DNA of 64,000 bases from positions 186,001-250,000 of the forward strand of contig JAGYIV010000012.1 in assembly GCA_018402345.1 (NCBI GenBank), given 5' to 3'. The notes beneath the pieces are model-generated. The model had not been told where the DNA came from. It did no database searches and saw only the letters and a program-made list of their open reading frames with translations. Source of the DNA: Terrimicrobiaceae bacterium. GTDB taxonomy: Bacteria > Verrucomicrobiota > Verrucomicrobiia > Chthoniobacterales > Terrimicrobiaceae. The translations under genes and the position numbers were made by a program. Each line of letters begins with the position of its first letter. The first letter of the stretch is position 1. Shown piece by piece: positions 58,711-64,000 of the stretch.

Positions 58711-60247
58711 GGGCGGACCATAGTGGCTGCGATATGTGGTGGCGACATGGATTTTGGATCGCCCGAATCGGGATCACAGCACAGGCTCCTGGGGGTGCGC
58801 AAAGAGTGTGCCTAGCTCGCCAGCAACTAACGTTCAAATTCTCCTCTGATCCTATCGCTGTCCCCGCCGCTTCCACCACAAATCGCATAGGTGATCTGAG
58901 TTGGATACTCTGGGTTGTCTCCGAGGGAACAGTCGCGCCACCTCGGTGGTAAGAAAAAATCCAACTTCAGACGGCTTTTGCAGACATCCAATCACTGCGT
59001 CTCTATGGCGGAATTCATAGAAAGAGATTTGGCTTCCATTGGGTATTGGTGACGCGCTTCCCTTGGTCTATCTACTATGAGATGGAGGAGTGTCTTCCGG
59101 TGGTCTGCCGAATATTGGACCGCCGATCTCACCCAAATAACCATCGTAGAGCCCTGTCAAATTAGGGCGAAAAAAGCGCCTCTACACGCGATGCTGCTGC
59201 TTCGAGAAGCCAATTTTGATGATGCAGGAGAAAGAATGACAATAAGGGGGAAAAAATGCTTGCGTGTATTACGCCAAGTGGGTGTTAAAAAATTACACCT
59301 ACTATTTTCCGTAAAAAATCCTCCCACGTTGATAGGGTTCTCCAAGGCGCCAAGTCTGCCACTGCCCATGGTGGCCAACTCATCGACGATGCCTTGGCCA
59401 AAGGTTTCGGTCGCTCGAAAAGGCTCGCCGCCTGCCAGTTGCTGGATCCGCGCAAAGACAAAAGCCGGTGCCTTTCGCCGGAAGCCATCGTAACCCCAAT
59501 CATTTTCAGCTTCTGCTCGGGCGGCGTGAGCATCAGCGATGAGGGACGCCTATGGGGCGATCCTGCACTGGGCCAGTTCTTGGGCATGGAACGCTGGACC
59601 GAGGAGACCACGGCTTCGGCGAGGATGGATTCATCAACAAAACCGGCTTCCGCCCCGACGACTCGCGCATGCAAACCGACCAACTCGGCCCCGCCGGAAA
59701 ATCCCGCGCAGGCAAGCAGGTCACTATCATCCACGGACTCAACGCCCAGCACGGCACCGATGGAAATGTGGAAAACCTCAACGCCCGCTCCCGGGTCGGC
59801 GTCACGCCAATCACGAAAGTCTTCTATTGACCCAACACCGAACTTTTAGACAGGAGGACAGGATGAGCAGGATTAACAGGAAGGGTTTATGGCAGTAATG
59901 AGGCGGACAATATTATCCGATGTGATTTCGTGCAATTCATTCGTTCTCTGTGCACTTTGACTCTATCGCTCCCGCTCATTCGCCCTTCGGGCCAACCTTC
60001 GGTTGCTCTTCCTTGCGCCACCCCGGCACGCGGTTGTGTTCTTCGTGGTGAATTCCTCTGGATTTGGGTTTAGTCCAAACGCCGCCAATTGAGCCGCGCC
60101 TCGGGCGTCTCTCCCGTTCCAAACCGGTGGGATCGGCTCGCCGCAGCGAACCTGGAGACAACGCTCTGTGGCGTTGAAAAAAACAAGGATCGTTCGCCTC
60201 GGCCTAGCAAGTCAACCGGCGTTGCAGGAAGTGTTTTACTGTTCTCC
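58711..60247. other. degraded region upstream of the amine-oxidase island
   Basis: About 1.5 kb without an intact gene. 58,711-59,330 shows nothing recognisable. 59,340-59,800 has coding-like base composition, with three overlapping frames each carrying plausible stretches (LIDDALAKGFGRSKRLAACQ; GFINKTGFRPDDSRMQTDQL; VTIIHGLNAQHGTDGNVENL), as in a gene broken by several shifts; I cannot name the family. 59,801-59,939 is the first copy of the island's direct repeat. Around 60,035-60,055 lies a CACCACGAAGAACACAA-like run similar to intergenic repeats seen in many environmental genomes. Confidence 0.5.
59801..59939. repeat. island-flanking direct repeat, copy 1
   Basis: 139 bases beginning GTCACGCCAATCACGAAAG and ending GTGCAATTCA. 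It matches copy 2 (63473-63608) apart from a 3-base indel and two substitutions. It contains the run GGAGGACAGGATGAGCAGG followed by ATTAACAGGAAGGG, similar to ACAGGATGAACAGGATTAACAGG-type intergenic sequences common in environmental bacteria. The pair brackets the amine oxidase, the IS4-family element and the tandem array. Confidence 0.88.
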
Positions 60248-61630
60248 TTACTCCCTCTGAAGTCTACCGATAACTGCCTCCGCCGCAGCTTCACCCGTCC
60301 GCACCGCCCCATCGAAAAAACCAGGCCAACGCTCGGCGATCTCGGATCCAGCCCAATGAATCCGTCCGACCGGGGAGGCAATGGCGTCCCCGAAATTTGT
60401 CCAGACACCCGGCGGGAGAAAGGCGGCATATCCTCCCCCGACCCAGTGATTAGCGGGCCAGTCCAGAACATCAAAGCTGGTGGGCAGGAGGGCCTGATCC
60501 CCCAAATAAGCCGCCAGATCCGATAAAATAGCCGAACGTCGTTCAGGCTCAGTTAAAACCTGCCAGCGATGATAGCGATCGCCCACGACAAAAGTAGCAA
60601 TCACCCCTTTGCCACTGCGGGGATCGGAGCTATCGGCAAAGAGTTCAATCCACTGGCTATTGCCCATCCCCACACCCGACAGTCCTTTTTCCCGCCAAAA
60701 CGGAGACTCGTAGGAAATCAGGATTTTAGCCAGAGTTCCCATCGGAAACCGTTGGGTAAGCTGTTGACGGGTTGCTGGTAAAGGCGGATCATAGTTAATC
60801 CGGCCACTAAGATGGGGCGGCATGGCGACGATCACAAATCGGGCTTTATAGCTGTTTTTCCCGGTGGTAACTTCCACCCCTGCTTGATCCTGGCTAATCT
60901 TAACCACAGGCTCATTGATCCGAATGTGATTCCCCAGTTCCGTCGCGATCACCCCGGGAATCTGTCCCGCCCCACCATGGATCAATTCCGCTTCTGGATG
61001 CTCTGATTGTGAGGCACAACGATTCCCCCAAAGGACGTGCAGCAGGGAGACTTCACCGGGTTCGGCCGGCCCCAGGAACCCAACGGCACGAACCATGTAG
61101 GAAAAATACCAATGACCAAAATCGGTTTTGGTATTTTCACCGATCCACTGCGCAAAGGTTTGTGCATCCAGGCGTTTATGTTCTGGATCTCGACCGGGGT
61201 GTGCCAAGGGCAGAGATAGGGAAAGTGCCTCAAAACGATGCCAAGCCTGCATCGCATCGTCCCATTCCTCCTGACTAATCTCAGGGCGTTCTCCTTCGGA
61301 AAATCCTTGAAACAAGTCGTTAAACTCTGACCGATGCCCATTATATAAAAAAACTGTTTTTCCCTCTAAAGGTGAAGGAAAACGAGGAATTTTATACTCA
61401 TCTAAAAGAGCTATAAACCGATCTTGGGTCGGCCCCACCCATTGACCTCCAAAATCAATATATTGATTCGGTGCAAATCTGTTGACCATACATCCGTCCA
61501 CCAATCCGATCCTGGGCTTCCAAAACCAAAATCTGATGACCCGCTCTGTGAAGGTTGCGAGCGGATAACAGTCCAGACAATCCAGAACCTACGATGATGC
61601 AGTCGTAGGTAGGAATTTTTGTTTCTAACA
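60248..61630 (-). pseudogene. flavin-containing amine oxidase, one-base frameshift, likely acquired
   Basis: About 460 residues when joined. The N-terminal frame from the ATG at 61630 reads PTYDCIIVGSGLSGLLSARN (FAD dinucleotide-binding GxGxxG), then VLEAQDRIGGRMYGQQ; it then shifts by one base between about 61,470 and 61,495 into QYIDFGGQWVGPTQDRF, which continues to the C-terminal FAD motif GRIHWAGSEIAERWPGFFDG. The protein is of the monoamine-oxidase/flavin amine oxidase type, with a style I associate with cyanobacterial homologues. Its DNA is visibly A/T-richer than the neighbours and contains one GCGATCGC octamer (60575-60582). An IS4-family element sits 18 bases upstream of its start, in the promoter position. 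Confidence 0.82.
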
Positions 61631-61657
61631 TCGGCAGCCCTTTTTTATGTTTTTTAT

Positions 61658-62961
61658 CACTACTGTCCGGTTATAAGTCAAACAGCTCCATTTGGTTGCA
61701 CTCCGGAGCCTCGGGTTTTCTGAACTCCTGATCCATAAGTAACTCATGCAAAGGCATCTTTTCAAACGGGTGAACACTCAAAATCTGCAGAGTTGTGCTG
61801 AGAGCACCAGTCAATTTGAGTTCCTTGTGCACGATCGCCACGAGCAGATATGTCGTCACCGCGATCCAGATTTGCGTTTTCACCGCATTCGGACTTGTCC
61901 CAAAATAATGCTTCAAGCGCAGGTTGCCTTTGACCCATTTGAAAAACAACTCGATGTCCCAGCGCTTCTTGTAAAGCAACGCAGCTGTGATGGCCGACAT
62001 CTCCATGTGGTTGGTCAGAAAGACCAAAAACCGTTGCTGTTTTTCGTCGAAATATCGGATGCGCCGCAGTGGCATCGGGAAGTCTCTGCGTGCTTTGGGC
62101 AAAGCAAATTTTCCCGTGTGGTCGCTTCGCACCCCGGCCGATTTGTCCACAGGACGAGACGCATGCCGCGAAAAGCGCAAATTGTCTTTGGCTCGGGTAA
62201 CGAAAAACGCTCCCGATGCGGCGATGCGATAGAGTCGCTGAAAGTCGGTATAGCCTTTGTCGAACAGGTAAATGGCCCCCGCCTCGAAGCTCAACTTGTC
62301 CAAAAAGTTCACATCGTGCAGACCGGCTGGGGATACAAAGACGCAAACCGGGATTGGCCCCCGCAAATCGAGTTGGGTGTGAATCTTGATCGCGCTCTTT
62401 GTCGAGCGGAATGTCGCCCACGGAAACAACGTCATCGACAAGTCGATCGTGCTCGAGTCCAAAGCGTAAACCGTGTTTTCCAAGTCCACCCCCAACTCCT
62501 CGCCCGCATAAAGACGCCGTGCTTTGTTGATCAACCCCATGGCCAATGCCTGCCAAAGCCGCCAGTCGCGCCCTTCGTTGGCATCCGCCAGCGTGGACTT
62601 GGCGACCGGTTCTCGGAAGCCCAAGTGGTAGAGCGCATCGGGCTTGGCATTCAAACACGCTTCGATATCCCGCAACCCCTCGCGCCAGGTCAATTGCGCG
62701 AACACCATGCAAATCAACTGCTGGCGAACTCCGAAATGTCGCACGCGAGACTCGGCGTTGAACCGCGCCGAGAGTCGGGAGAGGGTTTCGCGATGAACCA
62801 AATCGAGAATTTGGGAGAGGATGAAGCGACCGTGTGTCATTCGAGCAACACAGCACCTCCTGTTCCAAAAAATTTACATCCGTCACATCAAATTTCCAGT
62901 GCTTGTCTATGAACAACAACATGCTTTCAAAAATCAAAAACGTATTAACCGGACAGTAGTG
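61658..62961 (-). mobile_element. IS4-family insertion sequence, intact
   Basis: 1,304 bases. The ends are near-perfect inverted repeats: CACTACTGTCCGGTTA at the left and its complement TAACCGGACAGTAGTG at the right. It is flanked by an exact 9-base target duplication GTTTTTTAT (61649-61657 and 62962-62970). One intact transposase fills it. An exact duplication and full-length gene imply a recent insertion. The transposase reads towards the amine oxidase, so outward transcription could drive that gene. Confidence 0.95.
61671..62840 (-). CDS. IS4-family transposase
   Basis: 389 residues, full length. The N-terminal DUF4372-like part is MTHGRFILSQILDLVHRETL with FGVRQQLICMVFAQLTWREG; the DDE core has Asp in VYALDSSTIDLSMTLFPWA, Asp in AIYLFDKGYTDFQRLY and Glu in the Y-x3-R-x-x-x-E signature YKKRWDIELFFKWVKGN. 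Each motif is undamaged, so the enzyme is probably active. The gene starts about 120 bases inside the right end, and its stop lies 11 bases inside the left end. Confidence 0.95.
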   Translation of the reverse strand: MTHGRFILSQILDLVHRETLSRLSARFNAESRVRHFGVRQQLICMVFAQLTWREGLRDIEACLNAKPDALYHLGFREPVAKSTLADANEGRDWRLWQALAMGLINKARRLYAGEELGVDLENTVYALDSSTIDLSMTLFPWATFRSTKSAIKIHTQLDLRGPIPVCVFVSPAGLHDVNFLDKLSFEAGAIYLFDKGYTDFQRLYRIAASGAFFVTRAKDNLRFSRHASRPVDKSAGVRSDHTGKFALPKARRDFPMPLRRIRYFDEKQQRFLVFLTNHMEMSAITAALLYKKRWDIELFFKWVKGNLRLKHYFGTSPNAVKTQIWIAVTTYLLVAIVHKELKLTGALSTTLQILSVHPFEKMPLHELLMDQEFRKPEAPECNQMELFDL

Positions 62962-63090
62962 GTTTTTTATCAGAAAAAATCCCAGTATTCTCAGTGGTCA
63001 AAGTATCTACTGCTGTGTCCGCGGTCAATGACTAAACTTGGTATCAATTTGTCACAGTAGGGCCGAATCACCGGCAGCGCTGAAGTGCTG

Positions 63091-63468
63091 GAGATCAGTG
63101 AACTGACGAAAATCACCAGTCCACTCCCGCGGGAGATCAGTGAACTGACGAAAATCACCAGTCCACTCCCGCGGGAGATCAGTGAACTGATGAAAATCAG
63201 CAGTCCACTCCCGCGGGAGATCAGTGAACTGATGAAAATCAGCAGTCCACTCCCGCGGGAGATCAGTGAACTGACGAAAATCACCAGTCCACTCCCGCGG
63301 GAGATCAGTGAACTGATGAAAATCAGCAGTCCACTCCCGCGGGAGATCAGTGAACTGATGAAAATCAGCAGTCCACTCCCGCGGGAGATCAGTGAACTGA
63401 TGAAAATCAGCAGTCCACTCCCGCGGGAGATCAGTGAACTGACGAAAATCACCAGTCCACTCCCGAGA
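63091..63468. repeat. tandem array, nine 42-bp units
   Basis: Nine head-to-tail units, beginning GAGATCAGTGAACTGA and ending CCACTCCCGCGG. Two versions alternate in the order A A B B A B B B A: A has GACGAAAATCACC, B has GATGAAAATCAGC, two linked changes. Unit junctions create the 12-base palindrome CTCCCGCGGGAG. Inside B units CTGAT-GAAA-ATCAG is a perfect hairpin, and ATCAG-TGAA-CTGAT overlaps it as an alternative. The last unit ends CCCGAG rather than CCCGCGG. Confidence 0.95.
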
Positions 63469-63472
63469 CGGA

Positions 63473-63608
63473 GTCACGCCAATCACGAAAGTCTATTGAC
63501 CCAACACCGAACTTTTAGACAGGAGGACAGGATGAGCAGGATTAACAGGAAGGGTTTATGGCAGTAATGAGTCGGACAATAATATCCGATGTGATTTCGT
63601 GCAATTCA
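63473..63608. repeat. island-flanking direct repeat, copy 2
   Basis: 136 bases, same orientation as copy 1 at 59801-59939 and about 3.67 kb away. It differs by loss of three bases (CTTCTATTG against CTATTG) and two substitutions. It directly follows the tandem array, whose last unit runs into it. Confidence 0.88.
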
Positions 63609-63653
63609 CTCAATATGCCAGAATCCGATCGCTTTTGGACTTTTGAAATGTAG

Positions 63654-63689: not shown

Positions 63690-64000
63690 TCAGGAGGCGG
63701 GCAGGGAAGGGGGCGGCGTCCATTCGGCTTGGCGCAAGGCCTCCAGATCGCGGACAAACTCTGGATTTTTCTTCAACTCCTCGAAGATGAGTTGGGCGAG
63801 GCCGCGAGAGAGCAGGACATCGCTCGGGTAATGCATCCCGCCGAGCACACGGGACATCCCGACGGCGGCGGCTTCGCGCAGGAAGGCGGATTTGTATGGC
63901 GGATTGAGGTCGGCCAGAACGAGCGCGAAGGTCCAGGAGCGGGTCGCGTGGCCGCTGGGATTGGAGTAGCCTGACTCGTAGGGGACGAGCTTGTGAATCA
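63690..64000 (-). CDS. PAP2-family acid phosphatase, C-terminal part (runs off right edge)
   Basis: At least 103 codons, read leftwards to the TGA at 63690. The two C-terminal PAP2 motifs are visible: YSNPSGHATRSWTFALVLAD (S-G-H, catalytic His) and SRVLGGMHYPSDVLLSRGLA (S-R-x5-H-x3-D, nucleophile His). The pattern and the closing ELKKNPEFVRDLEALRQAEW fit class A-type non-specific acid phosphatases, usually exported. The N-terminus with the K-x6-R-P motif and any signal peptide lie outside the window. Confidence 0.85.
   Translation of the reverse strand, partial: IHKLVPYESGYSNPSGHATRSWTFALVLADLNPPYKSAFLREAAAVGMSRVLGGMHYPSDVLLSRGLAQLIFEELKKNPEFVRDLEALRQAEWTPPPSLPAS

Follow-up and report, generated by a model that had tools for sequence, protein, structure and literature searches.

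A tandem array of 21-bp palindromic units that appears to belong to a patchy class of arrays in some Verrucomicrobia

Overview

The window considered here, a DNA stretch of 64,000 nucleotides, contains a tandem array that appears to represent an undescribed class, patchy in its distribution, of palindromic arrays that hold no genes and keep a 21-bp beat in some Verrucomicrobia. With middling confidence, we read this array as an extragenic minisatellite of 21-bp palindromic units and as one member of a patchy lineage class within its verrucomicrobial order. Across the class, we observe the 21-bp beat, the dyads and several types of sequence; a related array has changed by a whole unit, and the best-placed examples are intergenic. 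A fixed 21-bp beat together with per-unit dyads, in arrays whose sequences are unrelated, would mean that something in these bacteria measures two turns of DNA, either in making or in using the arrays. Most members of the lineage are uncultured inhabitants of soils and lakes, and their intergenic DNA has received little study; the 21-bp array pattern is easily surveyed in public genomes.

Structure of the array

The array (63087..63465, no strand) comprises 9 units of 42 bp, equivalent to 18 units of 21 bp (AGTGAACTGAYGAAAATCASC / AGTCCACTCCCGCGGGAGATC), as delimited by TRF, a repeat finder and the 21-bp register. TRF reports it at 63090-63465 (period 42, 9.0 copies, 97% matches, 0 indels, score 696). 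Printed singly, the units run A A B B A B B B A. The two versions differ at exactly two positions, C/T and C/G, which are linked. Both approaches agree with the sequence-only reading, which had described nine 42-base units in this order with two linked changes. That reading had also placed a perfect palindrome at each junction: CTCCCGCGGGAG is indeed found at 8 of 8 internal junctions, but the final unit ends with CTCCCGAG. A CRISPR array is excluded, as all 42 bp repeat and unique spacers are absent.

The 42-mer is in turn a pair of diverged 21-mers, AGTGAACTGACGAAAATCACC and AGTCCACTCCCGCGGGAGATC; the clue to this substructure was a much-diverged 21-bp array in G003, a genome from the same genus. 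Tested for membership by its 21-bp period, the window array has 18 units in one register, shared by 18 of its 18 AGTSNACTSA-like sites. The dyad is missing in register from every second 21-mer, and the dyad test in this register comes out borderline when the window array is taken by itself (p = 0.065, column-order shuffles). Two palindromes of such length within one 42-mer have a p-value of 0.0025 for B and 0.0075 for A under letter shuffling.

Genomic context

The array is located in a decayed stretch that extends from an IS4-type insertion sequence to the 3' end of a PAP2-superfamily phosphatase gene. The insertion sequence (61658..62961, minus strand) encodes a transposase (61671-62840; Pfam DUF4372 and DDE_Tnp_1) and has 16-bp terminal inverted repeats (CACTACTGTCCGGTTA) as well as a 9-bp target duplication (GTTTTTTAT) at 61649-61657 and 62962-62970. 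Its end lies approximately 125 bp to the left of the array, and the earlier placement of the array beside a mobile island was right in substance. On the other side, the array sits 225 bp beyond the 3' end of the PAP2 gene, whose 3' part (63690..64000, minus strand) extends past the window. The PAP2 relatives within the genus are 41-43% identical and are without arrays, and at this distance they say little in an empty-site comparison.

A 158-bp direct repeat brackets a 3.5-kb segment containing the insertion sequence. Its left copy, located by the repeat finder, spans 59785..59942 and its right copy (94% identical) spans 63457..63611, both without strand; the right copy starts within the last array unit and contains a gene-end remnant (..SRxGVTPITKVY*) and a dispersed TTTTAGACAGGA..ACAGGATGAGCAGGATTAACAGGA motif. 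A shorter piece of the repeat is found again 16 kb downstream. The same segment harbors a flavin amine oxidase gene (60248..61618, minus strand; Pfam Amino_oxidase, 2.5e-62) whose frame is broken near 61490, with an in-frame stop on read-through; it is a probable pseudogene. Degenerate remnants are also present to the left of the array.

Several features of this neighbourhood are recorded in their own right. The motif TTTTAGACAGGA..ACAGGATGAGCAGGATTAACAGG occurs at 63513-63545 and, in weaker form, at about 40 further places of the genome on several contigs, sometimes clustered. The gene-end fragment TDGNVENLNARSRxGVTPITKV(F)Y* is found three times (59785-59830; 63457-63495, where only the last part is present; and L045:1113-1190), each time in degenerate, repeat-rich DNA, and no parent gene of the fragment was found. 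Just right of the window (L044:7084-13464, corresponding to C6:251084-257464 of the same genome) lies an open reading frame of 2126 aa whose C terminus is a ubiquitin carboxyl-terminal hydrolase (UCH) domain (E = 2.1e-11), which is unusual in bacteria.

Distribution of the unit and of 21-bp arrays

The exact 42-bp unit is limited to one locus of its own 3.14-Mb genome, and no full-length match was found among the 97 relatives searched, which is the outcome of the search of host and relatives that had been proposed as a check. The 29-base core of the unit is absent from viral contigs, and a viral origin was rejected. Such a distribution is what a purely local, neutral minisatellite of one strain would produce, any likeness elsewhere being a coincidence of short palindromes. 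The likeness of the window unit to G003 has E = 0.0012, in one genome among the 97, and the position in decayed sequence beside an insertion sequence points the same way. We nevertheless regard this explanation as improbable: in the sampled genomes, periods of 21 and 42 outnumber all others, and the consensus sequences of G003 and of a Spartobacteria MAG of another family (G093) have the AGTnnnCTnACnAAA layout in common, in register.

To measure the preference for this period, sequence was sampled from the window's genome (676 kb), G003 (219 kb) and G093 (228 kb), and self-identity was determined at each lag from 10 to 69. Within the 228 kb of G093, lag 21 yields 7 matches at 6 loci, with more at lags 42 and 63; the other lags show one match at 33, one at 41, and otherwise none. 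The lag-21 arrays of G093 differ widely in sequence. In another such count, lag 21 has 17 matches, lag 42 has 18, and every other lag has at most 8; the remaining lags are mainly multiples of 3, as is expected for repeats inside genes. A further tandem array of the window's genome, with a unit of 108 bp in at least 17 copies (L045:18148-20000 and L136:1-351), is Ala/Gln-rich and apparently coding.

The related arrays take several forms. G003 carries a degenerate, strongly diverged 21-bp array (AGTGGACTGACCAAATTCGTC, AGTCAACTGACCAAATTCGTA etc.) with the shared theme AGTSNACTGACNAAA and, some 600 bp from it, a distinct 42-bp array. G093 has AGTCGTCTCACCAAAATCGTG-type arrays at two loci. The window's genome itself contains further 21-bp arrays; one on contig C10 has thirteen units of TTCTGAGTGAGGCCATCCTCG. 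For one related array of this genome (L122), three paralogous copies are present, which differ by exactly one 21-bp unit. As to position, array a and the array at the C28 locus of G093 lie between convergent gene ends, array c probably likewise, and array b is found upstream of dnaK; the two or three G093 arrays that fill gaps between convergent genes count in favor of the extragenic minisatellite. In G093 we also note the same 315-bp array of 21-bp units on two different contigs (C27:23616-23930 and C15:25600-25914, 98% identical).

Outside these genomes, a 310-kb sample drawn from 20 further genomes of the order contained a single weak GC-rich match and no comparable array, and the class is therefore patchy. 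A broad pattern scan of GTDB genomes, with a pattern that cannot match the window's array, retrieved only G003, G093 and an AT-rich flavobacterial repeat; other pattern matches in the phylum are mostly 7-bp simple repeats. The backwards control pattern has 7 matches in one genome (G030) and 5 in another (G474), possibly more 21-bp arrays of other sequence.

Dyad symmetry

Dyads were assessed by searching for any axis that makes the array columns complementary, relative to shuffles of column order. Ten 21-bp arrays taken jointly give a Fisher p of about 1e-11, ten unselected ones (palindrome-pattern finds left out) 1e-6, and five G093 arrays (b-f) 1e-7, values to be read as indicative because column shuffling loses the neighbour composition. 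Control arrays of other periods (n = 26), put through the same procedure, yield p = 0.38; a single one falls below 0.05. The 21-bp beat also occurs without dyads, in two arrays of one genome (G027) and one of another (G437).

One dyad per two turns of DNA (21.0 bp = 2 x 10.5) would suit a helically phased protein-binding array, in which a putative dimeric protein binds along one face of the helix and the array serves as a regulator platform, nucleoid anchor or partition-like site. The exact 21-bp beat and the dyads recur in arrays of unrelated sequence; the GTSAGTCGACTSACNAAA type is found at two loci in one genome, with a related form in the window's genome and in G003; and no consistent covariation was found within the 21-bp arrays, which fits binding half-sites better than hairpins. 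For the class, this lack of consistent covariation means that paired hairpins and protein half-sites are indistinguishable. The dyad sequences vary by array, however, so that many proteins would be needed, a half-site is lost from many units of the degenerate arrays, and in the window array the in-register dyad is present in only alternate 21-mers. We consider such a binding array rather unlikely. A more general idea, possible if doubtful, is that of a hitherto undescribed class of intergenic DNA elements in Verrucomicrobiota with dyads at exactly two helical turns, where most loci have their own sequence and are kept for shape and phasing, not for sequence; these elements may be phased cruciform/hairpin or protein scaffolds.

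Folding and coding potential

The two mutually exclusive hairpins proposed for B units are both present as sequence (ATCAGTGAACTGAT and CTGATGAAAATCAG), but they are confined to B units and are not the preferred fold, which is a longer imperfect hairpin (AGTG-A-ACTG-A-TGA/AAA/TCA-G-CAGT-C-CACT). A switching RNA is unsupported for these two reasons. Folding of one and of several units had been suggested earlier as a check. A single A unit folds like its shuffles (z = -0.01), a B unit is somewhat more stable than its own (z = -2.1), and the RNA fold of the whole array reaches z = -8, with 0 of 100 shuffles as good, a score inflated because shuffling destroys the repeats. A search of the array against Rfam gave matches only far under the gathering scores, hence to no known RNA family, and no intrinsic terminator or promoter patterns were found in the array region.

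The array is open in one plus frame (63085-63567) and two minus frames (63052-63486 and 62991-63452), as the sequence-only reading had stated. Since 21 bp are seven codons, arrays of this kind might encode heptad-repeat (coiled-coil) peptides, for example SELTKIT-SPLPREI or SGLTKFV. The heptad frame is without stops in most arrays, a 3/4 hydrophobic spacing is seen in several frames, variation in array a is mainly at third positions, and synonymous changes are over-represented in an open frame of two G093 arrays (p = 0.02 and 0.03). Over thirteen arrays, however, the synonymous excess is weak (0.024), open frames are no more numerous than by chance (Fisher 0.46), and array d has a stop in every frame. 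In one copy of the L122 array, +1 and -1 changes put the middle out of frame. In the window array, the synonymous-change test gives no signal (p = 0.83 and 0.66), and the A/B differences alter amino acids in 3 of 3 open frames. A known protein was likewise rejected, as a Pfam search of the array frames returned nothing above cut-off. The weak coding statistics and the frameshifted paralogous copy therefore make coding unlikely in general, and possible for single arrays; heptad peptides as the general explanation we judge quite unlikely.

Proposed origin

For the extragenic minisatellite that we favor, a plausible course begins with an older 21-bp array that would have diverged to two alternating versions. 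Unequal recombination or replication slippage may then have raised the copy number of the resulting 42-bp pair, in its linked haplotypes A and B, within the decaying, IS-loaded stretch downstream of the PAP2 gene. Slippage at the phased quasi-palindromes could be what drives the amplification. The suggestion of block duplication rather than point drift fits: A and B are linked haplotypes, and elsewhere in this genome a related array exists in copies that are one whole unit apart.

If the arrays are functional, the two candidates are a hairpin barrier located at the ends of genes and an array of phased sites for protein binding. Under the minisatellite reading, any function would rather be that of a hairpin barrier near gene 3' ends than of a protein or of a specific recombination site; the barrier might act as a terminator or in mRNA-end protection, REP/BIME-like in action. 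No evidence was found at the array for the replication or recombination site that had been considered at the outset.

Comparison with known systems

A search of the open-access literature found no description of 21-bp arrays in Verrucomicrobia. The nearest known systems are REP/BIME elements and minisatellites. GTAG REPs are abundant in one verrucomicrobium, Opitutus terrae (PMC3733652). Like the arrays described here, REP/BIME elements are short extragenic palindromes, often located by gene 3' ends and with several sequence types per genome. They differ in that REP/BIME elements are dispersed, occur singly or in pairs and have a GTAG or CGTC foot, whereas the arrays are long and head-to-tail, with a fixed 21-bp beat, no common foot, and a sequence own to each array. 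An assignment of the window array to REP/BIME was rejected on both counts: its unit is without GTAG, has CGTC solely in A units, on their minus strand (lost in B, and not at the palindrome foot), and is restricted to one locus of its own genome.

Iteron and parS-type arrays consist of repeated sites of about 21 bp in helical phase. Compared with these, the unit sequences of the present arrays are too variable for a single known protein, and no replication or partition genes were found among the adjacent genes examined.

With bacterial minisatellites (VNTR), the arrays share head-to-tail units, whole-unit copy changes and higher-order repeats of 42, 63 and 84 bp. The window array itself is tandem; the whole-unit change was seen in a related array, among its paralogous copies. 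To our knowledge, ordinary minisatellites have neither a single preferred period nor a per-unit dyad; the arrays differ from them in a period that is nearly always 21 bp or a multiple thereof.
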